Assembly: GCA_022925895.1 (NCBI GenBank)
Contig: JAKSYS010000680.1
Location: 1-33,484 of the forward strand
Direction: 5' to 3'
DNA: 33,484 nt
DNA from: Fragilaria crotonensis
Taxonomy: Eukaryota > Bacillariophyta > Fragilariophyceae > Fragilariales > Fragilariaceae
Below, piece after piece: positions 9,046 through 32,932 of the stretch. The notes below the pieces were generated by a model, which saw nothing but the letters and a program-made list of their open reading frames with translations, was not told the DNA's origin and searched no databases. Position 1 is the stretch's first letter. Each line of letters starts with the position of its first letter. The position numbers and the translations under genes were made by a program.

Positions 9046-10935
9046 CTATATTAAATTGTGACCTTGCTGATTTGCCAACCTGACAGATAGTTCCGTGGAA
9101 CCATTACCGACGTGTGACTGAGATCCAGTATCCTCCATTGTTTTCAGTACATCCCCGAACTGCGGACTGGCTTGACCGATAGGATCATTCCCAAACACAA
9201 CAACATCTCGTTGACTCTTGATGTGTGAACGGCATTTCCGAGTCGAGTTAATCCCAACGCCTGTATGCTCACGCGGAAAAGAACACAAGGTGTCATAAAG
9301 TCGACTTCTTTCCACTTTCTGTACACCGCACAGGCATGCCGGCAGGGAAACATACAATCTTGCCATGCCCCACACGAACACCATTGTACACCAGGCCTTA
9401 CGATGTGAATACTTCGCTGGTGCATTGGTGACCCGTGGGCGACGGAGAGGACAATGTCATGCTCGCCTTCGTCAGCAGTGGAACCATACTCTGATGATGT
9501 CACTTTGAACTCATCACACCCAAGTTCAATCTCCATCACTGCCATGGATGCTGCAGCATCCCAACGTGCTTTAAAAATCTGAGCGACACGGGGAACAACT
9601 TCCGAATCCTCACGCTTCAAATACTTCGTTCGACAATCACCAATCCTTGTCGACATAATGTCAACAATCTTTTCTAAAGCTTCCATCCACGCCAGATCCC
9701 GAGCCTCTGAGAACATGTTGTTCACGCTCTCACTCGTGTTGGATGTAACAATTCCGTATCGAGGGGCAAGTTCGAGTGTTGCCAGGCAATCCATTGTGAA
9801 CATTTCCAGAGCACACCGCCGCTTTCAATGCTTTCAATAGGCAGCAGCGCTGGGCTTTATTTGGCGCACCAGATCCAGCATATTAGCAGCATTCCTTGCA
9901 GAATACGTCTTGGCCATCGCCATAACATAGCGTCCACACTGTTTTCCAAACCGCTGGGTCACGTTGATTCTATGTGCTTAGCACAGCTAAACTCCAAATT
10001 CTTTGGGAAAACATCGTCCAGGGCAGCCTTGAGACCCTTATCCCGATCCGAAATAAAGACAAATGAACGTCCACTAAGGATAGGAGATGCTTGCTTGAGA
10101 AGCCTTAGCATCTTCGTCCATGTTGCTCCATCTTCGTTACCAGAAGATATCATCAGCCCAATGGGAAACACATCATTGTTTCCTGACAACACAGATGCGA
10201 CATACAGTGTTCCCTTGTACTCGCTGCGCAGGTGAGTTGCGTCAAGCGAAACAACAGGTCGCACAAACTTCAGAGCCTCGTTCATAAAACCAGGAAAGAA
10301 ATAGACATCGACCAACTCGTTGGTTTCGCTCTTGTGCATCCGATGACCGACTTGGGGTTGCATTTCTTCATGGCTTCTACGTACGGGATAATCTGCTCAA
10401 AACTCTTCGCAATTAATCTCCGTCCTACCCCGGCATCGGTTGTTATTACACGGTATGCCGTCATGTGGACAATTATACCGCATTCGTTTGCTGCGGTTTT
10501 GATGACGTCGTTCGGTGTCGGATCACCATCCTTCGTTTTGAGAACCTTGACGACAATGTCATTCAGCTTTGCATGGCGACGCTTCTTCCATTTCCGCCCA
10601 TCTTTTGCCTTTGCTGGGCGGCGAACGTCACTGTGTTTGGTCTTCATCTTCGAGACAAAACTTCCATTGGCTCGTCGGCGGGAGATACGAATTTGGAAAG
10701 GACACCCCAGATGCTCGCGGCATTCGTACACACGAAATTTGTCGTTGATTGACCTCTTGATGCGCAAGTAATTCCCAGTCCGAACTTCATAAGCTTCGAC
10801 AATAGGATTCACAGCTTCCAGTGTTGGAAAGCACTGCAACTTTGCTTCCTTCATAAGGTCGTAGAAGGTAGTGTCGCCTGAAAGAGCGCTAACACTATCT
10901 TCATTCTCTGTCTTTGAAGCAGCAGCATCTTCCAT
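9046..10935 (-). pseudogene. MULE (Mutator-like) transposase with SWIM zinc finger, frameshifted
   Basis: DDE transposase of the Mutator family, which cuts and pastes its own element. An ATG at 10935 opens a 217-codon N-terminal region with a MuDR/FAR1-like zinc-binding area (FRVYECREHLGCPFQIRIS). The catalytic core follows in another frame: RPVVSLDATHLRSEYKG (first Asp), FISDRDKGLKAAL (second Asp), and TSNTSESVNNMF (likely the Glu). A SWIM finger closes it: WCSCGAWQDCMFPCRHACAV, with CxC…CxH intact. Frame changes near 10340, 9965, 9810 and 9280 inactivate the gene. Family residues are otherwise well preserved. An acidic N-terminal extension may have begun upstream near 11030. Confidence 0.9.
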
Positions 10936-11227: not shown

Positions 11228-12106
11228 TCAATAGTGTATCCTGATCCTCAGTACAATCGATGGTTGGGACACTACTGTTTCCTCCTCGGTGACAAAGAGC
11301 AGAGGGAAGCATTTCCTGAAAACGCCACGAATCTGCTCACGTGAAGGGGATTTTGCATTAATCAAAGCCGTCGCCAAGTGTTTCCTACCTTCTGTGACAT
11401 TACTTTGAGTGAAAGACATCTCATCAACTTCTTTTCGTTCAAGAAGATGTAACACGACAGCGACTGTAAAGATTCCGCAGTCGTATCCATTGTTCTGCCG
11501 AGGACATTCTTTGTATTGTGCGCGTTGAAGAACGTCGACATCTGACTGGTGTAGGGACTGATATTTGGCTTCATGAAGAATGTAGAACTTAAAGAAGAAG
11601 TTGACCTTCTCGACAATTTCAGCAGCAGTACTGGAACGATGAATTCTCGTTCGTGCGCGCTCCATAGAGTCGTAGAAACACACGTTCACAAAGAATTTTG
11701 GATCATTTACCGAAAAGTCAAAGCATGCCACAAAGAAATGTCCGGGACTATCAGGTGGCCCCCGAACAATTGGAATAATAAGCCTCTGTGGGACATCCTC
11801 GATGTTTTCATCGAGAATATTCTTGAAATCGCCATCCTTGACATGGTATTTGAGAACATTCTTGAACTTGGTGCGAATCTTGCGAATGTGATTCTGGTAT
11901 GCTTTCCAATCATTCTTTGTTCTCGCTTGTTCCCTTTTAATTGAGGCAGTTAGATTCATTGATGATATAAATGCCTCTGCACCAAGACTACCCAGCAACG
12001 GTTCAACAGCCGGTACTGTATGTGACAATGTCGAGTCAGGCAGTAAAGTTGTAAGGTTGATGATGTAGTCAAGAAGAGCAGTACTGAGAAAAGCTCTTTT
12101 AGACAT
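11228..12106 (-). CDS. Ulp1/SENP-like cysteine protease (C48 family) associated with the MULE
   Basis: Ulp1-type proteases cleave SUMO or similar modifiers; MULEs in plants repeatedly carry Ulp1-like ORFs (Kaonashi-type). This 292-residue ORF starts at an ATG at 12106. The likely triad is complete: His123 in GHFFVACFDF, Asp146 in CFYDSMERA, Gln204 in PRQNNGYDCG and Cys210 in YDCGIF. The N-terminal part holds LSTALLDYI. The protein once began further upstream, because the segment before it (LFPGDPRFGVVIKPP, DVECL, about 12115-12190) reads in another frame, so the ATG at 12106 is probably a truncated start. It shares orientation with the transposase and is 290 bp upstream of it. Activity is possible but unproven. 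Confidence 0.8.
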   Translation of the reverse strand: MSKRAFLSTALLDYIINLTTLLPDSTLSHTVPAVEPLLGSLGAEAFISSMNLTASIKREQARTKNDWKAYQNHIRKIRTKFKNVLKYHVKDGDFKNILDENIEDVPQRLIIPIVRGPPDSPGHFFVACFDFSVNDPKFFVNVCFYDSMERARTRIHRSSTAAEIVEKVNFFFKFYILHEAKYQSLHQSDVDVLQRAQYKECPRQNNGYDCGIFTVAVVLHLLERKEVDEMSFTQSNVTEGRKHLATALINAKSPSREQIRGVFRKCFPLLFVTEEETVVSQPSIVLRIRIHY

Positions 12107-17413: not shown

Positions 17414-19174
17414 ATGTCATCCGTTTTGTTCCAACACCCATCTCAGATGCCCAACGCTATCACTGCTAAAACCGGTAACAGTAATAATCCAAGTCATGAT
17501 AGTCGTAGCAACAATCGGAATATGAGCAAGAAACAACGAAACAAGCCGATTTTGGCAGCTGGTCGAAAGTTGCATCAATTGCCAGAATCCATAGAGGCCA
17601 CAGGTGTGGGAGTGGCCATGGCAGCGTTGCCGAATCGAATCTTGGGACAAGGCAAGCGAAAGGTTTGGGCGGGCGTGGAACGTTGCATCGCGGCGCGTCG
17701 CGAATTGGTGACTACTGCAAGTGGTAGTGCTAGTAATACTGGTACTCGAACAACCGGTAATAGTCGCAATGGCACGAACGAATCACCGATGACTGCAAGC
17801 ACAACATCACGGCGTCGACAACAATGTCCTTGGCAGCCAAAGTTGGAGGCACTTCGTGCGGCATGGATCTTCAAGCTTCGAAAACGATTTCGGGATGATT
17901 GTGGATCCAAGGCTCCTCCTGCGCTTGCCTTTGAGCGTTGGTTCCAAACAAATGAAATGTTATTTACTAATGACAATATTATAAGCGATCCAATACTGAT
18001 CCCCACGACGACCAAACAGACAGTGAACACGACAACAAAGACGAAACGAACCATTATGACGTGGGAATCTATTCTCAATGGTCCATCGGCGCCTGCGGCC
18101 ATTGCGTTCAAGGAGGATTTGGAACGAGCCACAATCGATAGGCACGACGCGGAGCGGATTATCTGCGCCTTGTATGAGAACGTGGCGGCTGCAGCCCGTG
18201 ACATGGCGGATCAGCAAGCGGCAGCACAACGACAGGAGCGAGAGAAGCCTAGTGACAATGCTACGTCAACGACAGCCACCGGAGGAGTGGTCAAGCTGGT
18301 TCGACACAAGCACACGTACGATTTGTTTCTCATCAACAACCAGAAACATATTTTGAAATTGAATCATGAACATTACGACAAGTTGGCGGCGCTTTGGAAT
18401 GTGACGCATGATTTGAGTCCGGACAAGAATGACGATCGTGATGAATTCTACAGCGATTTATACTGCCTCTTGGCGCGGTATTATTCGATTCAAGGACCTG
18501 GATTTCAAGCAGCATGTCCCGAAGCTGTCTTTGACACGTTGCAGTCTGGCCTCCATGTACAACATGAATGCTTCGCAAGTCCGCTGAACTGTTACTACGG
18601 TTCTTTTTGTTCGGCATTTTTTGAGGTTGATGAACCATTTGGATCTTCAGGCTCGTTTTGGGACTTTTCACCGACTCTGGGTGGAAGCTTCCAAGCAAAT
18701 CCACCCTTTGTCCATCATGTCATGGTGCGCATGGTGAGCAAGATAGAATCGCTTCTCTTGAACGACGAAACTGTTCCATTTTCGTTTGTCGTGATTGTCC
18801 CCGTTTGGTTGGAGGAATCGTCGTATCAAGCAATGGCTGCATCAAAATATAAAACCCATCACTATATCATTGCCAAGGCCGATCATGGATTTTGCGATGG
18901 CGCACAACATCAACGAAGAGATCGGTATCGTGTCAGTCCCTACGACACTGCCGTATTCATCTTACAAAACACAGCCGGAAAGACCAAGTTTGTTCCATCG
19001 TGCACATTTGAAGCCGATCTGAGACGTGCCTTTGCCACTGGTGTCCCTACCGAGGCTGCGATACTTCGCCGCAAGAGAGATGGTCGTGGAGAGATGGTCG
19101 TGGAGAGACGGACGAGGACGGTGGTGGGGGTGTGTACAAGGGAAGGAAACGGAATAAAACCGGTGACGGTGTAG
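17414..19174 (+). CDS. PCIF1/CAPAM-like cap-adjacent adenosine N6-methyltransferase
   Basis: Members of this family (animal PCIF1/CAPAM) methylate N6 of the 2'-O-methyladenosine next to the mRNA cap, using S-adenosylmethionine, in the nucleus. The 586-residue single-exon ORF starts at an ATG at 17414. Residues 1-135 are low-complexity, Asn/Thr/Ser-rich. A helical region follows (139-270). The catalytic core spans about 290-525: HECFASPLNCYYGSFCSAF (384-402), the signature NPPF (429-432) after GGSFQA, SFVVIVPVW (457-465) and YDTAVFILQN (510-519). The N-terminal WW domain of the animal protein is not visible. The C-terminus is probably frameshifted: a basic tail in the next frame ends at 19242. 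The upstream gene is divergent, so this is monocistronic. Fragments of this gene recur at 21.9, 26.9, 28.0 and 31.9 kb. Confidence 0.9.
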   Translation: MSSVLFQHPSQMPNAITAKTGNSNNPSHDSRSNNRNMSKKQRNKPILAAGRKLHQLPESIEATGVGVAMAALPNRILGQGKRKVWAGVERCIAARRELVTTASGSASNTGTRTTGNSRNGTNESPMTASTTSRRRQQCPWQPKLEALRAAWIFKLRKRFRDDCGSKAPPALAFERWFQTNEMLFTNDNIISDPILIPTTTKQTVNTTTKTKRTIMTWESILNGPSAPAAIAFKEDLERATIDRHDAERIICALYENVAAAARDMADQQAAAQRQEREKPSDNATSTTATGGVVKLVRHKHTYDLFLINNQKHILKLNHEHYDKLAALWNVTHDLSPDKNDDRDEFYSDLYCLLARYYSIQGPGFQAACPEAVFDTLQSGLHVQHECFASPLNCYYGSFCSAFFEVDEPFGSSGSFWDFSPTLGGSFQANPPFVHHVMVRMVSKIESLLLNDETVPFSFVVIVPVWLEESSYQAMAASKYKTHHYIIAKADHGFCDGAQHQRRDRYRVSPYDTAVFILQNTAGKTKFVPSCTFEADLRRAFATGVPTEAAILRRKRDGRGEMVVERRTRTVVGVCTREGNGIKPVTV

Positions 19175-20436: not shown

Positions 20437-21153
20437 ATGCGTGACTTTCCTGATACTGTCCGGAAGGCTGTCGGTGCTGTTGTACCATTACCTTGCGCTC
20501 AACCGTTTATTGGTATGAAGCTGCTGCAGCCCATTCGGCACGACCAGGTGGCCCGGCATGGCCTCTTTAGACGCAAGCCCGTGCTTACAGATTTCGAGAC
20601 TAATGCAAGGACTCGTGCCGATTTCGTTGTCGATCTACCGGTAGGTGTAAAGGAAAAACTGGAAAGCCTCGGCGCAAATTCCGGGGCGCAGTATGTACGA
20701 GCATTGCAAGTGACTCAATCAGCTCCCTTCCTCAAAGCGCGTTTGCACGTTGTCAACCCACCACAAGCTAATGATCTTGCCGGAATCGGCTTGAAGGCTG
20801 CAAGTGACGACAACTGGAGCCTATGTTTATACAGTGGACTAATCACGAAGAAATCCTTGCCAACGCTAGGAATGAGAAGTATCCTACAGAACGCTGACAT
20901 TAAGTCGGATGACCATTTGACAAACATCAAGGGAGTGGTTACTGCCATTTACTCCGTCACCGGAGCGTTGACGTACGTCGGAGATGTCGAGCATGTTACT
21001 ACGGGTGAAGCGCCAATTGAAAGTGCCCATGTTCTCAAGGGATGGCACTACACGGCAACCGACGATGGAAACGTCATCCTGTCCGAAATTGGTCCAAAAG
21101 AATGGATTATTGCCATCGAGTACAAGACGTTGGAAGAATTGATGATGAGATAA
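20437..21153 (+). CDS. Stand-alone member of a repeated domain family (gasdermin-N-like candidate)
   Basis: The 238-residue product starts at ATG 20437; a stop lies in frame 15 bp upstream. Family marks: FPDTVRKAV at the N-terminus, GMKLLQPI (26-33), basic GLFRRKPVL (42-50), DLAGIGLKA (113-121), LITKKSL (135-141), GVVTAIYSVTGALTYVGD (166-183) and EWIIAIEYKTL (222-232). No membrane segment or signal peptide is seen; amphipathic β-hairpins are plausible. Length, the early helix plus basic motif and the late strand order recall the pore-forming gasdermin N-domain, but this is pattern reading and not a search result. It converges on the pseudogene at 21182, only 28 bp away. Codons 157-232 are almost repeated at 27646-27880. 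Confidence 0.75.
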   Translation: MRDFPDTVRKAVGAVVPLPCAQPFIGMKLLQPIRHDQVARHGLFRRKPVLTDFETNARTRADFVVDLPVGVKEKLESLGANSGAQYVRALQVTQSAPFLKARLHVVNPPQANDLAGIGLKAASDDNWSLCLYSGLITKKSLPTLGMRSILQNADIKSDDHLTNIKGVVTAIYSVTGALTYVGDVEHVTTGEAPIESAHVLKGWHYTATDDGNVILSEIGPKEWIIAIEYKTLEELMMR

Positions 21154-21181
21154 GGACCGGACAACTATGCATTCACAGATT

Positions 21182-21870
21182 TTATTGGGTTGCTTGCTCC
21201 TTCGTCTCGTATATCTCTCCCAACTCCAGTAACTCAATGCCGATCATCCATTCAACTGGACCTGTTTCAGACAGCACGACATGTCCAGAATCGGTCACCA
21301 TGTATTGGCATCCCGCCATTATTTTGACTTGCCCGGTAGGCGTGGGGTCAAATTGCACTCCACCGGTAGTAACGAGCCTAGAATCTCTGATGTATGTCAA
21401 CCCTCCAGTGACGGAGTATAAAACAGTAACCAGTCATGTCTTCCTATTCATTGAGTGAAGCCTCTGAACGTCGTACTCGTCCAGGAAAATAATCAATGCA
21501 ATCGCATTCACCGATTTCCTCGTAATTTTGCAATCGTTAAAAGAGAAGCTCCGAATCTTGTCAGTAGTTGCCTTCAAGTCGATGCTGGCAAGATCCAGCT
21601 GATTCCGTCACCACCCAAGCAAGTATATACTGCACGCTGAACATTTTGACAAGGCTTGCTAGTTTTTCTCGAAGCTCGTCCTCGATATGCGCGATGAGAG
21701 TTTCAGCCTTCGCTTCGACAGTATTAAGCACATCCTTGCGTCGAAAAAGGCCGTAGCAGCCCATGCGTCGACGGCATGGTACGCATGCCGTACCCAGCCT
21801 GAGGACGGCGTTTGGAAAGGCGTGGTTTGCTTAATTGATGTGTGTCACAAACCTGACGCAGTCAACGTAA
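21182..21870 (-). pseudogene. Decayed family copy, ankyrin-type lineage
   Basis: Read from 21870 leftwards it gives AFPNAVLRLGTACVPCRR, then a deletion of about 50 nt that removes the GVKLLELIDH block, then MGCYGLFRRKDVLNTVEAKA. Shifted frames follow. Its C-terminal part (21400-21182) is open again: YIRDSRLVTTGGVQFD, AGCQYMVTDSGHVVL, EWMIGIELLEL. It is closest to the minus-strand genes at 22442 and 29643, including the TQ end. The ankyrin part is missing. Confidence 0.75.
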
Positions 21871-21884
21871 TTGATATTTTGTTC

Positions 21885-22065
21885 AGCCGTGCACCACCGA
21901 AGACGCGGATGACCAGGCGGCCAACCGACCGTTGGGCAACATGTATAAAAGAGAATTACAAAATAATGTAAAGGAGCAGGCGAGGGAGTGGAACAGTGGA
22001 GGTGGCAGAGAACTTGCTAGCGCGAAACCAGCGAAGAACGTGAAGCAGAGGACGACGAAACTAAA
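21885..22065 (+). repeat. Dispersed unit with PCIF1-gene 3' tail remnant
   Basis: The left part (GACGCGGAT, GGCGGCCAAC, CAACATGTATAA) recurs at about 27958-28005. The right part, from about 21972 (GGCGAGGGAGTGGAACAG then GTGGAGGTGGCAGAGAAC), matches the basic tail of the PCIF1-like gene at 19168 and the copies at 28038 and 31947. So a family-copy 3' flank and a PCIF1-gene tail are joined as one repeated unit. Confidence 0.65.
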
Positions 22066-22441
22066 TGTTTGCCATATACTGTGTTTACGTTTTCCTCTTT
22101 TAGGACGAGCGGCGATTTCAAACTTCAAGTTATGAGGAGACACCGCGCCACTCAGTCCTATTTCGACCGGTTCTACCGGTAGTGCAAGTGCAAACATGAA
22201 TAAAAGTTTTCTAAAAGGTTGTCAGGTCCCAAGCAACGTATCCGTGGTACCACCACAACATCCTTTCATTCCACATGGTATGTAATGCATGATTTACGAA
22301 AGATTAGTCGAGAATTCTGAAGCATCCCTCATGCATTTTTCTGTGCTTCTTCATTATGCATGCTGATCATAGGTCAGTTGGCCGGCAGGTGAACCATACC
22401 TTCAGACATGGTGACCCAACTTTTCTAAGTCGCAACGATCT
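22066..22441. other. 3' flank of the ankyrin gene, no gene
   Basis: Holds GACCGGTTC (near 22163), AATAAAA (near 22198) and GGTCCCAAGCAACGT (near 22226). The same sequence order is visible near 32081-32180 next to the other PCIF1-tail copy, so this looks like more of the duplicated unit. AATAAAA is on the plus strand and would not serve the minus-strand gene. Confidence 0.4.
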
Positions 22442-24598
22442 TTACTGCGTTAAGAAATCCTTCTTTGCGTCTGTCGTTTCCAACTTGAGGAACTCAATGC
22501 CGATGATCCGTTCAACTGGATTGGTTTCAGACAGGACGACTTGTCCAGAATCGGTCACCGTGTATTGACATCCCTCCATGATTTCGACAGGCCCGGTTTT
22601 ACTTTGGTCCAATTGCTTTCCACCATGAGCAACGCGACCAGAATCTCCGACATATGTCAACCCTCCAGTGACGGAGTATATAACAGTAACCACCCCCATC
22701 TTGCGTGTTGCAGGGACGCCATGTTCGTCCAGGAAATCAATCAAGTCCATCACTGACACCGATTTCTTGGTAATTCGACCATCGTTAAAAGAGAGGCTCC
22801 AACTTTTGTCACCAGTAGCCTTCAAGCCGACGCTGGAAAGATCCACATCTCGTAGCGGGTGTGTAGCGTGAAACGCCGACATCAAGCTAGCTGATTGCGT
22901 CACGTCCGAAGCAAGTATAAACTGCACGCTGAACTCTTTGACAAGGTTTTTAAGTTTTTCTCGTTGCTCGTCCTCGACGCACTCGATGAGAGTTTCAGAA
23001 TTCGGTTCGACGGTATTAAGCACATGCTTGCGTCGAAAAAGGCCGTAGCATCCCAGATGGCGGTGATCGATGAGCTCCAGCAGCTCAATGCCAATGCAAG
23101 GTAGACGACATGGTACGCATGACACACCAAGCCTGCTGACAACGTTTGGAAAGGCGTTGGAGTGCTTGATTATTTTCTGTGACAAACCTGACACTGTTTG
23201 GACGCCCCTTTTGATGTCAAGCTCATCGGCTTTCAGCACCCCAAAATCCTCCAAGTGACGTGCAACATCATCGTTTTTCTCCTTGCGAGCCACATCAAGA
23301 GCTGTTTCGCCGTCTTTATTTGTGATATTCAAAACAACCCCTTTGTGTTCCAATAAAGCTCCAACCACTTCCAAATGGCCTTCCTTGCTTGCTTTGATTA
23401 GCGCGGTATCGCCGTCTTTATTCGTGATATTCACATCAACCCCTTTGTGTTTCAATAAGGCACCAACCACTTCCAAACGGCCTTGCTCGCTTGCTTTCAT
23501 TAGAGCGGTGTCGCCGTCGTTATTGCTGATATTCACATCAACCATTTCGTGTTTCAATAAGGCACCAACCACTTCCAAACGGCCTTGCTCGCTTGCTTTC
23601 ATTAGAGCGGTGTCGCCGTCGTTATTGCTGATATTCACATCAACCATTTCGTGTTTCAGTAATGCATCAACCACTTCCAAATGGCCTTGCTCGCTTGCTT
23701 TGATTAGAGCGGTGTCGCCGTCGTTATTGCTGATATAAACAGCAACCATTTCGTGTTTCAGTAATGCATCAACCACTTCCAAATGGCCTTGCTCGCTTGC
23801 TTTGATTAGAGCGGTGTCGCCGTCGTTATTGCTGATATAAACAGCAACCATTTCGTGTTTCAGTAATGCATCAACCACTTCCAAATGGCCTTGCTCGCTT
23901 GCTTTGATTAGAGCGGTGTCGCCGTCGTTATTCCTGATATAAACAAAAACCCCTTTGTGTTCCAATAAGGCTCCAACCACATCCAAATGGCCTTCCTTGC
24001 TTGCTTTGATTAGAGCGGTGTCGCCGTCGTTATTGCTGATATTCACATCAACCCATTTGTCTTCCAATAAGGCTCCAACCACATCCAAACGGCCTTCCTT
24101 GCTTGCTTTCATTAGAGCGGTGTCGCCGTCGTTATTGCTGATATTCACATCAACCCATTTGTCTTTCAATAAGGCTCTAACCACTTCCAAACGGCCTTCC
24201 TTGCTTGCTTTCATTAGAGCGGTGTCGCCGTCGTTATTGCTGATATTCACATCAACCATTTCGTGTTTCAGTAATGCATCAACCACTTCCAAATGGCCTT
24301 GCTCGCTTGCTTTCATTAGAGCGGTTTCGCCGTCTTTATTCGTGATATTCACATCAACCCATTTGTCTTTCAATAAGGCTCTAACCACTTCCAAACGGCC
24401 TTGCTCGCTTGCTTTCATTAGAGCGGTTTCGCCGCCATACTTATCCTTGATATTCACATCAACCCCTTTGTGTTCCGATAAGGCTCCAACCACTTCCAAA
24501 CGGCCTTGCTCGCTAGCATGGATGGGCGCTAACTTAACCTTGTCGAGATTCCCACCTCTGGCATTCCGAATCAATTCTGAATCAAACCTATCACTCAT
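22442..24598 (-). CDS. Ankyrin-repeat protein fused to the family domain (718 residues)
   Basis: Single open frame from ATG 24598. Residues 1-22 form a head (MSDRFDSELIRNARGGNLDK). Residues 23-57 are a first, slightly divergent repeat, and 58-431 are eleven ankyrin repeats of exactly 34 residues (TALMKASEQGRLEVVxALLK, then HxxVDVNISNNDGD). A C-cap follows (432-461, TALDVARKEKNDDVARHLED). The family domain occupies about 478-707, with CYGLFRRKHVL (517-527), ITKKSVS (609-615), GVVTVIYSVTGGLTYVGD (635-652) and RIIGIEFLKL (697-706). Repeats are nearly identical at protein and DNA level, which means recent expansion or homogenisation. A receptor-plus-effector design is the natural reading; ligand and action are unknown. 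Confidence 0.85.
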   Translation of the reverse strand: MSDRFDSELIRNARGGNLDKVKLAPIHASEQGRLEVVGALSEHKGVDVNIKDKYGGETALMKASEQGRLEVVRALLKDKWVDVNITNKDGETALMKASEQGHLEVVDALLKHEMVDVNISNNDGDTALMKASKEGRLEVVRALLKDKWVDVNISNNDGDTALMKASKEGRLDVVGALLEDKWVDVNISNNDGDTALIKASKEGHLDVVGALLEHKGVFVYIRNNDGDTALIKASEQGHLEVVDALLKHEMVAVYISNNDGDTALIKASEQGHLEVVDALLKHEMVAVYISNNDGDTALIKASEQGHLEVVDALLKHEMVDVNISNNDGDTALMKASEQGRLEVVGALLKHEMVDVNISNNDGDTALMKASEQGRLEVVGALLKHKGVDVNITNKDGDTALIKASKEGHLEVVGALLEHKGVVLNITNKDGETALDVARKEKNDDVARHLEDFGVLKADELDIKRGVQTVSGLSQKIIKHSNAFPNVVSRLGVSCVPCRLPCIGIELLELIDHRHLGCYGLFRRKHVLNTVEPNSETLIECVEDEQREKLKNLVKEFSVQFILASDVTQSASLMSAFHATHPLRDVDLSSVGLKATGDKSWSLSFNDGRITKKSVSVMDLIDFLDEHGVPATRKMGVVTVIYSVTGGLTYVGDSGRVAHGGKQLDQSKTGPVEIMEGCQYTVTDSGQVVLSETNPVERIIGIEFLKLETTDAKKDFLTQ
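23290..24530 (-). repeat. 102-bp tandem repeats encoding 34-residue ankyrin units
   Basis: Twelve copies of a 102-bp unit, for example GGCCTTGCTCGCTTGCTT at 23479 and again at 23581. Variants come in blocks: SEQGHLEVVDALLKHEM versus SKEGRLxVVxALLxDKW, arranged in runs, and two neighbouring units (repeats 7 and 8) are identical at protein level. That mosaic indicates unequal crossing-over or gene conversion. Confidence 0.9.
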
Positions 24599-25839
24599 AA
24601 CGATCAGCTTGTGACAGGGATCAATGCAAGTGACGATCGAAATCTAATCTTGGCTGAGGGTGATCTGATCTGTGACACGCTAAAGCAAGTCAATTTACGT
24701 GCTGTGTTGAGCGTTGAGAATTCGCGAATCTGTTGTGGAGCTCTGTAGAAGGATGCAAGTGCACAGAACCATGAATCAGCATTTTGAGGGAGTATCATAC
24801 AACTCCGAGCATTCCAGTACTATCATAATCCTACGCAACAGTAATTTGCAAAGCCGCTAGCTCATTTTAAGACGATCGAGCCATACCGGTATGAGCAGCT
24901 AAATAAATAGTAAGACCCTCTAACGACAATCTCAAATAAACATGGCTGGCGAATGAAATCCCATAGACGGTGCTGTACGGTGTACTCTAAAGTTCCCCAT
25001 TTAGCGCTCCCAAATAAAAATTTTCAAAGATATGCCCCAATAATAATCCGGTATAAACGTACACAGGGATTGCACACGATACAACAGGCCTGCACCACGC
25101 CGGCCCCGTTGCTGGCGATTGCAACGGGATCATCCAAGCGATCTAAACGAAAAACGGTGAAGTGTGTTTTCCGGTCGTTCGAATACTCTCTCTCTACTAC
25201 TAGCTAGTATGGATCGAAATGAAAGGTCGACGTGACTGTATAAGATCAAATCCAAACTCTCGTTGGGAGTTCAAATTTACACGATCAATCCAATATATGA
25301 TGTATATAAGCATATAAGCACTATTTCAAAAAAAGTCACGAATGCATTCCCGGTCCTTTACTTGTATAGCAGTACTCAGATTGAATTCGTTCCTAAAACA
25401 ACGCATAGGCCAGGCGGATCCGACTGAAAAATCCATCACACTAATGCCGTTGAAGCATGTTGAATTTTGAACTACTTGTAGACTTGTAGTCTACTCGGAG
25501 TACCCTTGCACCTGGTTCTGCGAGTATGTTGTGTTCTGTATGCCTGAGGATGGTGCGTAGAATTTGTGCATATCCCAAATGATTGAATCAAGGATCAAGG
25601 TATGTATATAGCATATGCGCCGTCCTCGAGAAAGTCTATTTTGGTGCACCATACTACATGTACTGTAATAATCGTAGTAAACAATTCTGTACCTGTATGA
25701 TACTACGTACCAATTGACCAAAAAAGGAGACTTCATTGATGAGCGAAAGGAATAACACCACGCATCTTGATCCAAGGTCTGCAATCGACGGAAAACAACA
25801 TAAACAACTGACGGCGCCACGCTAGTACACCAGCACCAT
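24599..25839. other. Divergent intergenic region, 1.2 kb, no gene
   Basis: It separates the divergent ankyrin gene and the plus-strand gene at 25840, so it should contain two promoters. It holds short AT-rich parts (24896-24930, 25290-25340) and a CTCTCTCTACTACTAGCTAG stretch near 25188. Frames crossing it show no domain. No RNA gene was recognised. Confidence 0.45.
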
Positions 25840-26892
25840 ATGCCGACTCTCGACGACTTACATGATGCTGTCCGAATCGCTATGAAAACGGGCTTGCCTT
25901 TAGCTCGGCCAATCACGGGCATGCAGCTCCTGCAGTTCATCGGAAACGCCGACGTGGAATGGTACGGCGGTATCTTAAGACGCAAGTACGTGCTAAAAGA
26001 ATCCAAGCACCCTTCTGATACTCTCATCAAGTACGTCGATCTCCATGCCAACCATCACAAAGAACCACTTCAAAGAATTCTGGACGCTCAGGACCAACAA
26101 TACCTTAGACCATCTGACGTGTTGAGATCACACTCCTCTGAAACGGAAGCAAGCACATCCGTCCCACTTCAAGGCGCGGGCATTCTCAGATTCGGCTTCA
26201 TGTCTAAAAACAAGAAGAAATTCAGCATCGAATTTGGCAACGGACAAATTCTGAGGAAATCAGTGTCAACAATGAATTTGATTGATTTCCTGGACGACCA
26301 TGAAGTCAAGAGGCGTCGCTCCCTAACGAACATGAAGGGAGTGGTTACTGCTGTTTACTGTATCACTGGAAAGTTGGTGTATAAGGGAACGACCGTTCAC
26401 GTCACCAGTGGTGGAGCGCACTTGAACACAGCGCCAAATCTGCCAATCAACGTTACGGCGGGATTCATGGAGACAAATACGGAAGGGGTAATCCTGCCAG
26501 AAAACACTGAGGAATCTGGAGGATTGACTAATACCGTAAATTCCTCGTCTGTCACTGCAGGTGGAGTGCAATCGAACGCCACGCCAACCGGACCTGTCAA
26601 CGTTAATACGGGATTTCAAAGCACACTTGCAAATATGGAAGACGCACTCCTACCAGAAACGAACACTGAGGAATCTGGAGAATCCACGTCTGTCGCTGCA
26701 GGAACAGTGCAATCAGGTCTTACTTCAATTGCGCCTGTCAATTATACGGCGAGATTGCAACGAACGATGGCCAGTTCGGAAGCGGTAAGCGTGTCACCAA
26801 GCGATACCGATGAATGGATTATCGCCGTTGACATCCTAGAGTTTGATGAACAAGAAAGGGGTAGCAATCGATTAAAGTTCGTTGCACCTTAG
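25840..26892 (+). CDS. Family member with a triplicated C-terminal segment (350 residues)
   Basis: ATG at 25840. The N-terminal half follows the family: LHDAVRIAMKTG (7-18), GMQLLQFIG (27-35), GGILRRKYVL (43-52), SDTLIKYV (59-66), ILRKSVSTMNLIDFL (137-151), GVVTAVYCITGKLVYKG (167-183). The following β segment is present three times, degenerately: residues about 187-231 (VTSGGAHLN…LPENTEESG), 237-283 (VTAGGVQSN…LPETNTEESG) and 284-320 (VAAGTVQSG…). The usual ending EWIIAVDILEF closes it (325-335). Ser/Thr-Glu-Glu-Ser linkers join the units. It has no ankyrin part. Its function is unknown beyond family resemblance. Confidence 0.75.
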   Translation: MPTLDDLHDAVRIAMKTGLPLARPITGMQLLQFIGNADVEWYGGILRRKYVLKESKHPSDTLIKYVDLHANHHKEPLQRILDAQDQQYLRPSDVLRSHSSETEASTSVPLQGAGILRFGFMSKNKKKFSIEFGNGQILRKSVSTMNLIDFLDDHEVKRRRSLTNMKGVVTAVYCITGKLVYKGTTVHVTSGGAHLNTAPNLPINVTAGFMETNTEGVILPENTEESGGLTNTVNSSSVTAGGVQSNATPTGPVNVNTGFQSTLANMEDALLPETNTEESGESTSVAAGTVQSGLTSIAPVNYTARLQRTMASSEAVSVSPSDTDEWIIAVDILEFDEQERGSNRLKFVAP

Positions 26893-26904
26893 AAAATTAG
26901 AATT

Positions 26905-27140
26905 GCTTCCAATGAAAGACGATAAAGTTCAATTTTCGTTTGTGGTTATTGTCCCTGTTCGGTTCGAGAAATCGTCGTATCAATATATATGGCCGCATAA
27001 AATTTAAAAACCCAACACTTAAAATCATCGCCAGGCCGATCATGGGTTTTACCATGAGGCACAATATCAAAAATTGAGGAAAGCCGAGGCTGAATGTCAG
27101 ACCGAGAACAGCTGAAAGATGGTCTAACACAAATACGGTT
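26905..27140 (+). pseudogene. Fragment of the PCIF1-like gene (catalytic core 3' part)
   Basis: The sequence reads FSFVVIVPVRFEKSSYQ then, with stops, KADHGF-like (QADHGFYHEAQYQK). This parallels SFVVIVPVWLEESSYQ and KADHGFCDGAQHQ of the gene at 17414 (residues about 452-520). DNA similarity is clear over at least 180 bp, for example TCGTCGTATCAA and GCCGATCATGG in order. Internal stops mean it is dead. It begins 13-20 bp after the stop of the family gene ending at 26892. Confidence 0.8.
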
Positions 27141-27174
27141 GCAACAAGGTGGGGATCTAAGAAATCTACATGTC

Positions 27175-27514
27175 GGTTCTTCTGCCATTCAGTCACCGAT
27201 TTCCTCGTAATTTTGGAATCGTAAATAGAGAGGCTCCAACTCTTGTCAGAAGTAGCCTTCAAGCAGACGCTGACGAGATCCGCATCTTGAAGTGGGAATT
27301 TAGCGTGGAAAGTTGACAAAAAGGCAGCTGATTCCGTCACCACGCAAGCTAGTATATAGTGCATGCTGGACTTTTCGACAAGGTCTTCAAGCTCTTGGGT
27401 ACTTGTATTCTTCACACCCGGTTTCCGTTTAAACGTCAGAGTAATGGGTAATGTACTTGGGGACACCGCGAACTCCGTTTGTGCATAGGTTCTAGCGAAG
27501 TCGTGCAGAAGCAC
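27175..27514 (-). pseudogene. Truncated family copy (middle portion), minus strand
   Basis: The minus strand reads TQELEDLVEKSSMHYILACV, VTESAAFLSTFHAKFPLQ, DADLVSVCLKATSDKSWSL and ITRKSVTEW, matching residues 545-615 of the ankyrin-fused protein. It stops at about 27180, exactly where the PCIF1-gene fragment begins in the opposite orientation, so a rearrangement junction lies there. The N-terminal FRRK region is lost or unrecognisable. Confidence 0.7.
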
Positions 27515-27992
27515 TGTTCGAGAGAGCTACTGATCTTGCAAGGAACGGATTGACTGGAGCCTCGCTGCGTTCGGCAATGGCCAAATCAAGAAGAAAGTAT
27601 GTTCAATGATGGAGTTAAAACATATTCTAGAGGAAACTGACGTTATGGTGGATGATCATTTGACAAACGTCAAGGGAGTGGTTCCTGCTATCTACTCCGT
27701 CACCGGAGCGTTGACGTACGTCGGAGATGTCGAGCATGTTACTACTGGTGAAGCGCCAATTGAGAGTGCCGATGTTCTCTCCGGATGGCAATACGCGGTG
27801 ACCAACGATGGAAACGTTATTCTGTCCGAAATCGATCCAAAAGAATGGATGATCGCCATCGAGTACAAGACGTTGGAAGAATTTGATGAGCTATATGATG
27901 CTAGTTGCAAAGCTGGTTACTCGTTGAGAGTACGTGATCACGATAGACCACGAAAGAAGACGCGGATTACCTGGCGGCCAACTGACCATTGA
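27510..27992 (+). pseudogene. C-terminal half of a family gene, 5' part decayed
   Basis: An open stretch from ATG 27606 gives 128 residues. Coding similarity extends further left in other frames: ATDLARNGLTGA, then after a small deletion WSLAAFGNGQIKKKVCSMME. The C-terminal half is intact (GVVPAIYSVTGALTYVGD, EWMIAIEYKTLEE) and is about 90% identical in DNA to 20905-21135. After that it runs into repeat sequence (RKKTRITWRPTDH). The ATG at 27606 might allow a short protein, but the domain is incomplete. Confidence 0.7.
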
Positions 27993-28004
27993 TTAACATG
28001 TATA

Positions 28005-28922
28005 ATGAACCAACACAGAACAAAATGCATGAGGAAGGCGATCGTGTCGAACGGCGGAGGCAGCACCTTTAGTTTTCAAGTGAACGGGAGTACAGAAATT
28101 CTCAGCATACCTGATCCATCCGAAAGCAAGGACGATATCAACGCTCGAACCAGATTATTGTACTGCAGTATGGAGGACGCCTTTTCAAATGCTGTCCGGG
28201 AGGCTCTCGGTGGAGTTCCACCAGTACTTGTCCCTTGCGCTCAACCATATCCAGGTGTCAAGCTACTGAATCTCATCCCACGCTCCCACATTCGAGTGTC
28301 TGGCCTTTTTCGACGCAAGCGTGTGTTTGGGAACCCCGGAAATTCGTATGATTCTCTCCTCCGTTTAGTTGATCACGATGATGATCAACGAGAAGAACTT
28401 GAAACGATTGTTACAGAAGCCGTACCTGTCAGTTTAAAAACGATTCCAATCAATTCCATGACGGTGGGTTTTAATGCATTCATGCCCTTGCAAGACATGG
28501 AACTTGCCGGCGTTGGTCTCAAGACTTTGAATGACTGCAACTGGAAAATCAATTGCAGCCATGGCCAAATTGAAAAGAAATCATTGTCAATAATAACATT
28601 GACAGACTTTTTAGAGAGGAATCGCGTCGCGTGGCGTCCTTGCATGAGTATCTTCGAGGGAGTGGTTACTGCAATCTACTACATCACCGGAGGGGTGAGA
28701 TACATTGGAGATTCCGAGCTCGTCACAACTGATGGAGTGCAATTGGATCCCACAACGCCAACTAGGCCTGTCAACATAATTGCCGCGGGGTGGCATTATG
28801 TGGTGAACAATGCTGGTCAAGTCCAATTGTTCGAAACCGATCCAACGGAATGGATTGTCGCCATTGAGTACCAAAAGTTGAAAGAAGGAACTGACCACCG
28901 AATCAGGCTCGTTGATTTTTAG
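28005..28922 (+). CDS. Stand-alone family member (305 residues, domain from Met56)
   Basis: Open from ATG 28005. The first 20 residues are encoded by the dispersed repeat also seen at 21.9 and 31.9 kb (ATGTATAATGAACC, then GGCGATCGTGTCGAACGG), so translation may really start at Met56 (MEDAFSNAVREALGG). Domain marks: CAQPYPGVKLLNLI, SGLFRRKRVF, DMELAGVGLKTLND, GQIEKKSLSI, GVVTAIYYITGGVRYIGD, VTTDGVQLD, EWIVAIEYQKL. The core is complete and uninterrupted. It lies 12 bp downstream of the partial copy ending at 27992, with no sign of shared transcription. Confidence 0.75.
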   Translation: MNQHRTKCMRKAIVSNGGGSTFSFQVNGSTEILSIPDPSESKDDINARTRLLYCSMEDAFSNAVREALGGVPPVLVPCAQPYPGVKLLNLIPRSHIRVSGLFRRKRVFGNPGNSYDSLLRLVDHDDDQREELETIVTEAVPVSLKTIPINSMTVGFNAFMPLQDMELAGVGLKTLNDCNWKINCSHGQIEKKSLSIITLTDFLERNRVAWRPCMSIFEGVVTAIYYITGGVRYIGDSELVTTDGVQLDPTTPTRPVNIIAAGWHYVVNNAGQVQLFETDPTEWIVAIEYQKLKEGTDHRIRLVDF

Positions 28923-29205
28923 AAAAAGCATGAAGCTTCGCGTCGACCCGATCAACAATCACCAATTACCAATACAGCCATTAACGACGATCGAAAACAT
29001 GATTCACTTGGGGACAAACCGACCGTTTGATCAACAAGCATCGTGCAATAAGGAATGAAGAAACGAAGAAACACAGTAAATTGTACTACTCTCTAGTAGA
29101 CCTACTCGAGTGCAGTTCTGGAATATGCATTCTGAAGTACAGTACCGTAGTACTACTACTCGAGTATTGGTGAAGGAATGTGGGTATGCGTGTTGATTGT
29201 ACAGA
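28923..29205. other. Intergenic, palindrome-rich
   Basis: Contains many TAGTAC, GTACTAC and CTCGAG words (29085-29165), giving small foldback potential. No gene. Confidence 0.4.
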
Positions 29206-29363
29206 TCCGATTAGGTTTCACCGATTTGACGTCAGCGCGTACCAATCAGGATGCTCTCAGCATGTTACTGTCTTACTGTAGTACTGTATGTCAGTACGTT
29301 GAACGTGAAGTCATCAGTACTGTGACGTGGGCGTTGACGTCAAATTGGTGAAACCTAATCGGA
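29206..29363. mobile_element. MITE-like element: 29-bp terminal inverted repeats around a 100-bp core
   Basis: The left arm at 29206-29234 starts TCCGATTAGGTTTCACC and ends TTTGACGTCA. The right arm at 29335-29363 is its reverse complement with one mismatch in 29. Both inner ends carry the palindrome TGACGTCA, a CRE-type bZIP site. The core has no ORF. Flanking target-site duplication is not obvious, so element status is inferred from the inverted arms. Confidence 0.65.
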
Positions 29364-29642
29364 CCCATTGGAGAAAGGCAATACTGTACACTGTAGTAAC
29401 CGTACAGTAGATCGAGCAAGTATCCATCCAAAATGTGACAGTAGGTAGGTCTTGTCTAATAAGTTTTGTTAAACTGAATTACGTGTCATCACATTCATTC
29501 AGTTATGAGAGCATGGTAAGCTCTCCAACCAGATATTAAATGATTTGATCAGTAGATTCCACAAAACAAACTCCATACTTCTTCTGTAGGATAAATCCCA
29601 ATGCATGCATTCAAAGCTTGGTCGGTCGCCTGGTAATGATCT
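29364..29642. other. Intergenic, 3' flank of the minus-strand gene
   Basis: AT-rich with TACTGTA-type words near 29385-29410. No gene is supported. The stop of the minus-strand gene at 29643 faces this stretch. Confidence 0.4.
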
Positions 29643-30671
29643 CTATTGCGTTGCTACCGGTAGTTCCTTCTTCTCGTATATATCACCCAACTCGAGGAAC
29701 TCAATGCCGATGATCCGCTCAGCTCGATTGGTTTCGAACAGGATGACTTCTTCAAAGTTGTTCACCATGTATTGACATCCCGCCATGATTTTGACAGGCC
29801 CGGTTGGCGTGGGGTCCAATTGCACTCCACCGGTAGTAACGAGCCTCGAATCTCCGACATATGTCAACCCTCCAGTGACGGAGTATATAACAGTAACGAC
29901 TCCCGTCTTGCTATTCATAGAGCGAAGCCGCTTGACGGTATTTTCCTTCAGGTAATCAATCAAGTTCGTCTCTGACACGGATTTCTTCGTAATTTGACCC
30001 TCGTTGAAATAAAGGCGCCAACTCTTGTCACTTGTACGCTTCAAACCGACGCTGGCAAGATCCGCATCTTGTAGCGAGAATTCCGCGTGAAAAGCCGAAA
30101 TAAAGCCAGCTGCTTGTGTCACGTCCCACGCTATTGTAGACTTCTCGTCGAACTCTTTGACAAGGGTTTCAAGTCCTTCTCGTTGGTCGTCCTCGACATG
30201 ATCAATGAGAGTTTCAGCATTCGCATCGAAGGTATTCAGCACCCGATTGCGTCGACAAAGACCGTAGTAACCCAGGCGGCGGCGGTGATCAATTAATTCC
30301 AGAAGCTTGACACCGGTACAAGGTCGACGACATGGTACGCATGTCGAACGGAGCCAGCTGACAGCGTTTGGAAAGGCGTTTTTGGACGAGAAGTGCGTCA
30401 TGGATTTGGGCGGCGACCTACCTGATGCAATCAACGCCAATTTTGGGTGCATTGACACAAGCATGTCCTTCACACTCCTGTGGTCGTCGTTTAACGCCCC
30501 ATGTGCCATGAGGAACTCTAATCCCGAAAGATCCTCCAAAAATGCATCATCACCTTCTTTATCCGGTCGAGGCGTATCAAGAGCTTGGTGTGATGTGCAG
30601 CCAATTAGCTCGTTCTCGAGATTTTCATTCGTGTCATTCTGGATCAATTCTGAATCAAGATTGAGACACAT
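29643..30671 (-). CDS. Family member with vestigial ankyrin N-terminus (342 residues)
   Basis: ATG at 30671. The head (MCLNLDSELIQNDTNENLEN) corresponds to MSDRFDSELIRNARGGNLDK of the ankyrin-fused protein. Residues about 27-60 (SHQALDTPRPDKEGDDAF, LEDLSGLEFL) correspond to its ankyrin C-cap; the repeats between are missing. The domain runs from about 98 to 330: AFPNAVSWL, GVKLLELIDH (120-129), YGLCRRNRVL (136-145, FRRK altered), ITKKSVS (227-233), GVVTVIYSVTGGLTYVGD (257-274), IIGIEFLELGD (320-330). The frame is intact. It appears to be a repeat-collapsed paralogue, which implies the ankyrin fusion preceded the duplication. Confidence 0.8.
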   Translation of the reverse strand: MCLNLDSELIQNDTNENLENELIGCTSHQALDTPRPDKEGDDAFLEDLSGLEFLMAHGALNDDHRSVKDMLVSMHPKLALIASGRSPPKSMTHFSSKNAFPNAVSWLRSTCVPCRRPCTGVKLLELIDHRRRLGYYGLCRRNRVLNTFDANAETLIDHVEDDQREGLETLVKEFDEKSTIAWDVTQAAGFISAFHAEFSLQDADLASVGLKRTSDKSWRLYFNEGQITKKSVSETNLIDYLKENTVKRLRSMNSKTGVVTVIYSVTGGLTYVGDSRLVTTGGVQLDPTPTGPVKIMAGCQYMVNNFEEVILFETNRAERIIGIEFLELGDIYEKKELPVATQ

Positions 30672-31020
30672 AATGATCTACTCAGTACTCTCTGATTTGA
30701 CAAAGAAGCAACACAAAGTGGCGTCTGACACGCAAACGTCAATTCAAAGTGGTACAAGTACCTGGTGTATTGTTCGCTCGGCAGCTGGTATGATCTTTCT
30801 CATTAGTTGGACGAGGTGTTCAAATATTTCACGTGCGAGGGGGGAACCCCCACGGGAAGGCATTTCAGGCTTTTCACAAGTTCGTCATACAAGAATCTCG
30901 ATCCAGAAATGTGTCCATCGAACAAATTGTCTCCAGAATTCCGAAGTCATATGTCACAATGGCTGGAATCAGGGAAACATTTCTTTGGGTAGGCTATGGT
31001 CGCTCTAGTATGATATAATT
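30672..31020. other. 5' flank of the 29643-30671 gene, no supported gene
   Basis: Short frames on the plus strand lack a domain and lack ATG starts. A small hairpin (GGGGGGAACCCCC) lies at about 30839. AAGTACCTGGTG near 30750 resembles the words upstream of the PCIF1-like gene. Confidence 0.4.
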
Positions 31021-31024
31021 TTAG

Positions 31025-31480
31025 TTTATATTACGCGATAGCGAAGAAAAGCATTCCATTGAAGTGTGATTGGCGTTTCGACTTTAGATGACCTGTCGTC
31101 GAGTTTCATTTTCAGTTTGTAGTTTGTAATAGCAATCCCGCGGTCAATTCGACTGGAACTTTCTTGCGTGAGATCCAATTGCGATCCACCATTGCGGTTA
31201 CGAATGTGGAAGCTCCGGTGCATGTCAAACCCTCCTGCAACGTAGTAGATTGCAGCAGGTCACCACACTCCCGCGACCTGAATCATTACGCTACTCCAAT
31301 GCAGCCCTACTTCTTCTCTTTTGAATTTTGCCCATCTTAAACATGGACACGGATTTGTTCTTCAAAGTGATCAGTGGCGAGAGGAAGGAAGGCTGTAGCT
31401 GTTGTCATTTGTCGCCTTGAAGCCGACGTTGGAAAGATCCCCATCTCTTGCAGTTTTGGGATGGATGCATGTAGGTTCCT
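31025..31480 (-). pseudogene. Strongly decayed family copy
   Basis: In several frames of the minus strand one can read DGDLSNVGFKATNDNSYSL (31460-31390), ITLKNKSVSMF (31370-31335), IYYVAGGLTCTGASTFVT (31255-31200) and VPVELTAGLLLQTTN (31165-31120), in family order. Stops and at least three frameshifts intervene. The N-terminal part to the right (to about 31830) cannot be aligned by eye. Confidence 0.6.
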
Positions 31481-31944
31481 GGGATCTCGACCGTGGCAGT
31501 AGAGAGATTTAGAAAAGGGTTCGCCTTGTGAGTCACTATACAACCGGAGCAAATCGACATGGCAGGAAACAAGGGTTGATATTGTCGTAGGAAACGATGA
31601 TGGATCAAGAACAAGTAACCTTGGCGCGAAGCGGAGGATTTGCTGCTCCTCCCGTAAGAACATTCGCACAAAGTGTAGGAAAGTGCTTAGGCCAGTCGTC
31701 GACTCTCTGGTACTCGTGTCAAGTGTCGGTCGACCGTGATTGATGATTGGATTAGCAATCGAGGACCAGAAGTTGGAAGAATACATGGGAGAAGAAGTAT
31801 ATTCGGTATCCAAAAGGTTATCAGAAAAGGACTAGAAAGTAGGAACTTCTCGCGAACCCCATCACCATTCACCATGAACAAAACAATGATTCACCTGGCG
31901 ACTACCTAACTTGGAAATAATAACGAAGCGCAAAAAATTGTATT
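31481..31944. other. Upstream remnant area, no gene supported
   Basis: A 158-codon minus-strand frame passes through but runs across the decayed family copy in the wrong frame, so it is probably a shadow. The right end (31873-31905, CCATGAACAAAACAATGATTC) resembles 28990-29010 downstream of another family gene. Confidence 0.4.
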
Positions 31945-32220: not shown

Positions 32221-32932
32221 TCATTCGACATGCACCAATTTCATCGTGGCGGTATCATGCTGTGTGTCCACGTCAACATAGACAACCGAATCTCCAACCT
32301 TGACGAATCCCAATTTCTTCGCATCCTCTACTGCCTCCTCCAACGACCCCGTCCCAACAATGGGATGGATACCACGATAAATCATCAACTGCCGTCCCAA
32401 TTTGGCACTGTCACAAAAGCACAAGATGGGCACTTGTGGTCGGTACGCACTCACGAGCGCGGGGAGTGTCCCATCCTTCAAAGTCGACACCAAAATGGCT
32501 GTGGCCTGTTGCGTATCCGCGGCCGTGACGGCAGCCTTGGCAATGGCACCCATGAACGAGGCGTCAGGAGCCTCGAAACGACGGACCGACGCACCACCCA
32601 CACCACCCTCGGACGCGTACCGTTCAGCACTCAAGATAATGTCATTCATGATTTTGACGGATTCGACAGGATACTTGCCCTTGGCAGTTTCTCCCGACAG
32701 CATGACACAGTCGGCACCATCGTAAATGGCATTCGTCACGTCTGCAACTTCAGCGCGAGTGGGACGAGGGTTTTTGGCCATACTTTCCAACATTTGAGTG
32801 GCCACAATGACGGGTTTGCCAACGGAGTTGCAGGCGGCCACCATTTCCTTCTGAGCGTTGGTCACTTGCTGCAATGGGAGTTCGACACCCAAATCGCCAC
32901 CTGTTTGCACAGGTCCTTGGTGGTGTCGCCTC
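32221..32932 (-). CDS. Pyruvate kinase, C-terminal half only
   Basis: Pyruvate kinase converts phosphoenolpyruvate and ADP to pyruvate and ATP. Homology begins abruptly at GGDLGVELPLQQVTNAQKE (about 32907) and runs to the natural end (KLVHVE). Present are the late barrel motifs VIVATQMLESM, PTRAEVADVTNAIYDGADCV and MLSGETAKGKYP, and the C-terminal regulatory domain (ATAILVSTLKDGTLPALVSA, YRPQVPILCF). Missing are the N-terminal half of the barrel, the B domain and the catalytic Lys/Arg and Mg-binding Glu that lie before or at the breakpoint, where Arg of RGDLGVE is replaced by Gly. About 225 of roughly 500 residues remain, with no internal stops. It cannot be a working kinase; it may be a captured fragment. 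Confidence 0.85.

Follow-up and report, generated by a model that had tools for sequence, protein, structure and literature searches.

What kind of protein is encoded by a domain of about 230 residues that recurs over and over in one region of the genome of the freshwater diatom Fragilaria crotonensis? The region lies on GenBank contig JAKSYS010000680.1, a stretch of 33,484 nucleotides that is referred to below as the window and corresponds to contig C646 of the assembly searched (62.1 Mb, 881 contigs). A first-pass annotation made from the letters of this DNA had suggested a pore-forming cell-death family resembling the N-terminal domain of gasdermins. Gasdermins perforate membranes and thereby kill cells in the immune defence of animals, fungi and bacteria. 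The analysis reported here supports that idea for the fold and for likely pore formation. Structure models make it highly probable that the domain has the gasdermin N-terminal-domain fold, and we consider it likely that the family is a diatom branch of this fold whose members most likely form membrane pores for regulated lytic cell death.

The main evidence comes from predicted structure. AlphaFold models of two members, c1 and c3 (41% identical; Table 1), were built without templates, and gasdermins were the best PDB matches of both models by two programs, Foldseek and VIA-align. In the VIA-align results, the first 13 entries for the c1 model and the first 20 for the c3 model are all gasdermins, after which the scores drop to unrelated folds. 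Both models have the bacterial gasdermins 7n50, 7n51 and 7n52 near the top of their matches and also match the Trichoplax gasdermin 8jyw; 8jyv matches the c3 model. Both models also display the order of elements of a gasdermin N-domain that had been proposed from sequence. Because model confidence is low (mean predicted local distance difference test score, pLDDT, of 59.6 for c1 and 56.7 for c3), the ranking is evidence of moderate strength only for placing the domain in the gasdermin fold.

Several observations weigh against this assignment. Besides the low pLDDT of both models, the matches of the c3 model to gasdermins leave helix 1 unaligned, the Foldseek list for this model is weak, and no sequence profile links the family to any gasdermin. 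The Pfam gasdermin profile PF04598, which the first-pass annotation had put forward as a check, gave no match in the whole genome at E ≤ 10. No Pfam family was matched by c1, and among four other window members only c3 gave Pfam matches, to Ank families, with the remaining rows under their cut-offs. Searches of PDB sequences returned a single chance match (E 0.25) and none to gasdermins for a single-sequence query, and no match for a profile query. PADLOC, run on five members, gave one sub-significant match (E 0.011, to a methyltransferase model), and a fold search of BFVD gave no match at E ≤ 0.001. A domain peculiar to diatoms that resembles gasdermins just in its alpha/beta layout, drawn towards them by low-confidence models, would account for the low pLDDT, the missing profile link and the weak Foldseek list. 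We nevertheless judge it unlikely, since both models, made from members 41% identical, rank gasdermins on top and then fall away to unrelated folds. Moreover, the best matches of the c1 model include bacterial gasdermins released in 2021, and the AlphaFold2 training-data cut-off precedes that release. Membership in MACPF/CDC, pore-formers whose shape is related, is very improbable: among the matches listed these proteins score below all gasdermin entries, and at 464 and 473 residues their chains have about double the length.

The family alignments contain the conserved motif blocks quoted in the first-pass annotation and allow parts of the domain to be compared with gasdermins. Helix 1 and an LLQLI strand are followed by a loop of variable length with the consensus GLFRRK. 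According to PMC9699695 and PMC12547243, the beta1-beta2 loop of GSDMD has aromatic residues at its tip (W48, F49, W50, Y54) and binds anionic lipids through basic residues. From the order of elements, we infer that the GLFRRK loop is the counterpart of the gasdermin beta1-beta2 loop; this loop and helix 1 were placed by position in the family alignment rather than by residue-level structural alignment. Few parts of the domain are as strongly conserved as the alternating hairpin GVVTAIYSVTGGLTY. A Trp/Phe-rich insert occupies the loop position in the members on contigs C127, C609 and C803, all of which are fused to ankyrin repeats. The insert has 54 residues on C127 (17 Trp, 11 Phe), 39 on C609 (14 Trp, 10 Phe) and 47 on C803 (15 Trp, 7 Phe), and repeats such as GAG TGG TTT GAC underlie it. 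An intron reading of the insert was rejected because it contains no stop in the three paralogues and its length differences keep the frame. Judged by its place in the sequence order, the insert may be an enlarged membrane anchor. A Cys directly after helix 1 (motif PC; c1 residue 20) is nearly invariant in the family alignment and is a possible lipidation or disulphide site.

To delineate the copies, an iterated profile seeded with the 238-aa c1 protein was run over 1,411 stop-to-stop frames of at least 40 residues, taken from the window and from eight further stretches. Eight clear copies were found between 20.4 and 30.7 kb of the window. The cluster itself thus stands as first described, but the ninth copy then counted is represented by nothing beyond a trace (13 bits, E 0.004). 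Five copies (c1, c3, c4, c7 and c8) are intact, not four as first reported, and three (c2, c5 and c6) are broken or partial. The profile E-values of the intact copies (3e-88 to 3e-100) overstate the similarity, since these copies had become part of the profile. A search with only c1 still recovered c3 (E 1.9e-39), c7 (8.5e-33), c8 (1.0e-30) and c4 (1.5e-19), and chance similarity is therefore excluded. In c4, the last (C-terminal) third of the domain occurs as three tandem repeats; because of this internal duplication, the copy may be non-functional or chimeric. The public gene model MHU86_23480 (402 aa) fuses the half copy c6 with the intact c7, possibly as an artefact of prediction.

Table 1. 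Domain copies and neighbouring features in the window.
Feature	Position	Strand	State and evidence
c1	20437..21153	+	intact single-domain gasdermin-like protein, 238 aa; open reading frame (ORF), profile 292 bits, structure model
c2	about 21221..21818	-	broken, three frame fragments; profile; internal TGA in match
c3	22442..24598	-	intact, 718 aa; N-terminal ankyrin array followed by gasdermin-like domain; ORF
c3 gasdermin-like domain	about 22481-23152	-	profile 304 bits; structure model
c3 ankyrin-repeat region	23264..24520 (approximate ends)	-	Pfam Ank families, 10-12 stretches; Ank_2 424.8 bits
c4	25840..26892	+	intact, divergent; ORF; three profile stretches
c5	about 27188..27580	-	broken partial copy; one internal TAG; partial profile match; head-to-head with c6
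c6	27534..27992	+	second half of domain only (about positions 122-233); profile
c7	28005..28922	+	intact, 305 aa; domain about 28182-28880; ORF; profile 291 bits
c8	29643..30671	-	intact, 342 aa; domain about 29688-30374; ORF; profile 305 bits
Possible ninth-copy remnant	31374..31508	-	very weak; profile
MuDR/SWIM transposase pieces	9144-10935		
Ulp1-type peptidase gene	11228-12106		
Frame with PCIF1_WW match	17414-19174		intact, 586 aa; 179.7 bits
Pyruvate kinase gene	32221-32844		

Grouping the matches by hand gave 22 places on eight contigs, and in 14 of them the frame stays open across the entire domain. The window holds eight places (five open), C201 three (two open), C458 three, C50 four (three open), and C127, C609, C803 and C212 one each, all open; a match on C537 (E 0.007) was left out of this count. 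Pyruvate kinase genes adjoin the copies in the window, on C201 and on C458. Since all three clusters share this neighbour, they may have arisen when a single region was duplicated, or may in part be alleles, and C458, which like C201 has pyruvate kinase genes beside its copies, may partly duplicate that contig. Protein database searches, two of the three having scored only about 8,000 candidates, returned at least 15 proteins besides c1, including three of F. crotonensis, one from the window and two from C50. No relative was confirmed in viral contigs (queried with c1 and with the profile) or in prokaryote species genomes (queried with the profile), two collections from which records near the window's genome may be excluded.

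The intact members behave as genes. When neutral substitution was simulated to the observed synonymous distance for six pairs of intact members, a mean of 4.7–9.5 stops arose, and at most 8 of 1,000 runs remained stop-free for each pair. Because these pairs were picked as intact, the result supports the conclusion that they are real genes rather than testing it. The ratio of nonsynonymous to synonymous substitution (dN/dS) is 0.46–0.84 across 10 pairs, corresponding to weak constraint or fast evolution. A tree of 26 rows places c3 in one supported clade and the other ankyrin-fused members, from C127, C609 and C803, in a second. The arrangement of the copies raises a more specific version of the pore-forming reading, with odds that overlap with it, whereby a pore forms only once two divergent paralogues come together. 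Such a requirement for two variants is described for Neurospora RCD-1, also a single-domain form, in PMC12547243. Divergent paralogues of the diatom family are adjacent, and several lie head to head (c3/c4, c5/c6 and the C201 pair). However, c5 and c6 are broken, and the tree shows the C201 pair as sisters (low support, 80/67), not as representatives of two ancient partner lineages. A heteromer of this kind seems rather doubtful.

Fusions and tails bear on how the proteins might be controlled. Pfam detects N-terminal ankyrin repeats in four members: c3 and those on C127, C609 and C803 (Ank_2 54.5, 46.4 and 72.3 bits, respectively), with 32–36% identity between the c3 array and the other three in best local matches. 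In comparisons of only six sequences, the member P0006 retains a 45-residue piece resembling the end of the c3 array (E 4e-5), and the c8 N-terminus weakly resembles that array (E 0.002). Because neither P0006 nor c8 has a Pfam ankyrin match, an old ankyrin fusion that was later lost in both is only a possibility. Of the 14 intact frames, 11 have a tail of 5–18 residues after the domain; in the three on C50 the tail has 27, 52 and 56 residues. Unlike in animal gasdermins, these tails include no large C-terminal inhibitory domain, which in most intact members follows from their shortness. A hydrophobic C-terminal segment resembling a membrane anchor was found in 2 of 21 members examined, P0013 (C50; L011:737-1651) and P0016, with mean hydropathies of 2.35 and 2.00; the remaining 19 do not exceed 1.71. 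The ankyrin fusions, these two segments and the fast divergence would also fit a gasdermin fold that makes no pore and serves, for example, as an ankyrin-controlled adaptor for signalling or membrane binding. The hairpin argues otherwise, its high conservation being as expected of a pore wall under selection, and we regard a pore-less role as improbable.

Pairs of a gasdermin gene and a protease gene occur in fungi and bacteria; in fungi, about 80% of gasdermin genes are clustered with protease genes, according to PMC10197012. In contrast, the eight contigs with diatom copies gave no match to S8 (PF00082, E ≤ 0.001), CHAT (PF12770) or caspase-like (PF00656) families (both E ≤ 0.01), in a search that read short contigs exon by exon, so that neighbours may be missed, and that covered these three protease types alone. 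An Ulp1-type protease was set aside as a partner, given 44 matches to its family in the genome and adjoining MuDR/SWIM transposase pieces (Table 1); with so many matches, the gene is probably part of a mobile element. A frame with a PCIF1_WW match lies between this gene and c1.

The domain-only members resemble characterised gasdermins that work without cleavage. Like the diatom domain, bacterial gasdermins have about 240 residues with little after them, though they show no sequence match to the diatom family. The Trichoplax gasdermin is a domain-only protein, as are most diatom members, and is described in PMC12547243 as a dimer released by reduction; it differs from the diatom family, with its 22 hand-counted places and ankyrin-fused members. 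Fungal RCD-1 (8jyy) and HET-Q1 differ from the diatom family, in which ankyrin repeats and gasdermin-like domain share one polypeptide and no clustered protease was found. With the animal proteins GSDMD, GSDMB and GSDME, the diatom family has in common the predicted N-domain fold and a putative basic/aromatic loop at the presumed beta1-beta2 position, but it lacks the large C-terminal domain and a PF04598 match.

Taken as pore-formers, the diatom proteins would rest in a soluble form until triggered by a signal. Helix 1 and the basic/aromatic GLFRRK loop would dock on the membrane, two hairpin regions, one of them GVVTAIYSVTGGLTY, would insert, and the subunits would assemble into a beta-barrel pore. 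In domain-only members this would be independent of cleavage, resembling the Trichoplax and Neurospora gasdermins, possibly with a short tail that inhibits, as bacterial ones do. Where ankyrin repeats are fused on, their N-terminal array would be the likely sensor and restraint.

We know of no executioner protein for regulated cell death in algae, a process that can end blooms. No algal gasdermin was found in the open literature on diatom, stramenopile, microalga and protist topics, as judged from titles and the starts of abstracts, a scope that mostly leaves subscription papers outside. A survey of 67 protist species with human sequences and Pfam models, gasdermin D included, recovered no homologue of mammalian pyroptosis regulators, and the accessible part of its text does not state whether diatoms were included (PMC7539657). 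New in the diatom family are the fusion of ankyrin repeats to a gasdermin-like domain and the Trp/Phe-rich insert at the presumed anchor-loop position. Tentatively, and with the odds somewhat against so full a picture, a photosynthetic protist may have its own expanded gasdermin arsenal, with ankyrin arrays fused on as sensor and brake and one subfamily with a Trp-rich, stretched anchor loop, and may use it for protease-free suicide by lysis, either in defence against viruses or parasites or when incompatible cells meet. If the pore-forming reading is true, gasdermin-type proteins would extend to diatoms, negative surveys based on sequence would have to be redone with structures, and there would be a testable effector of cell death in diatoms.
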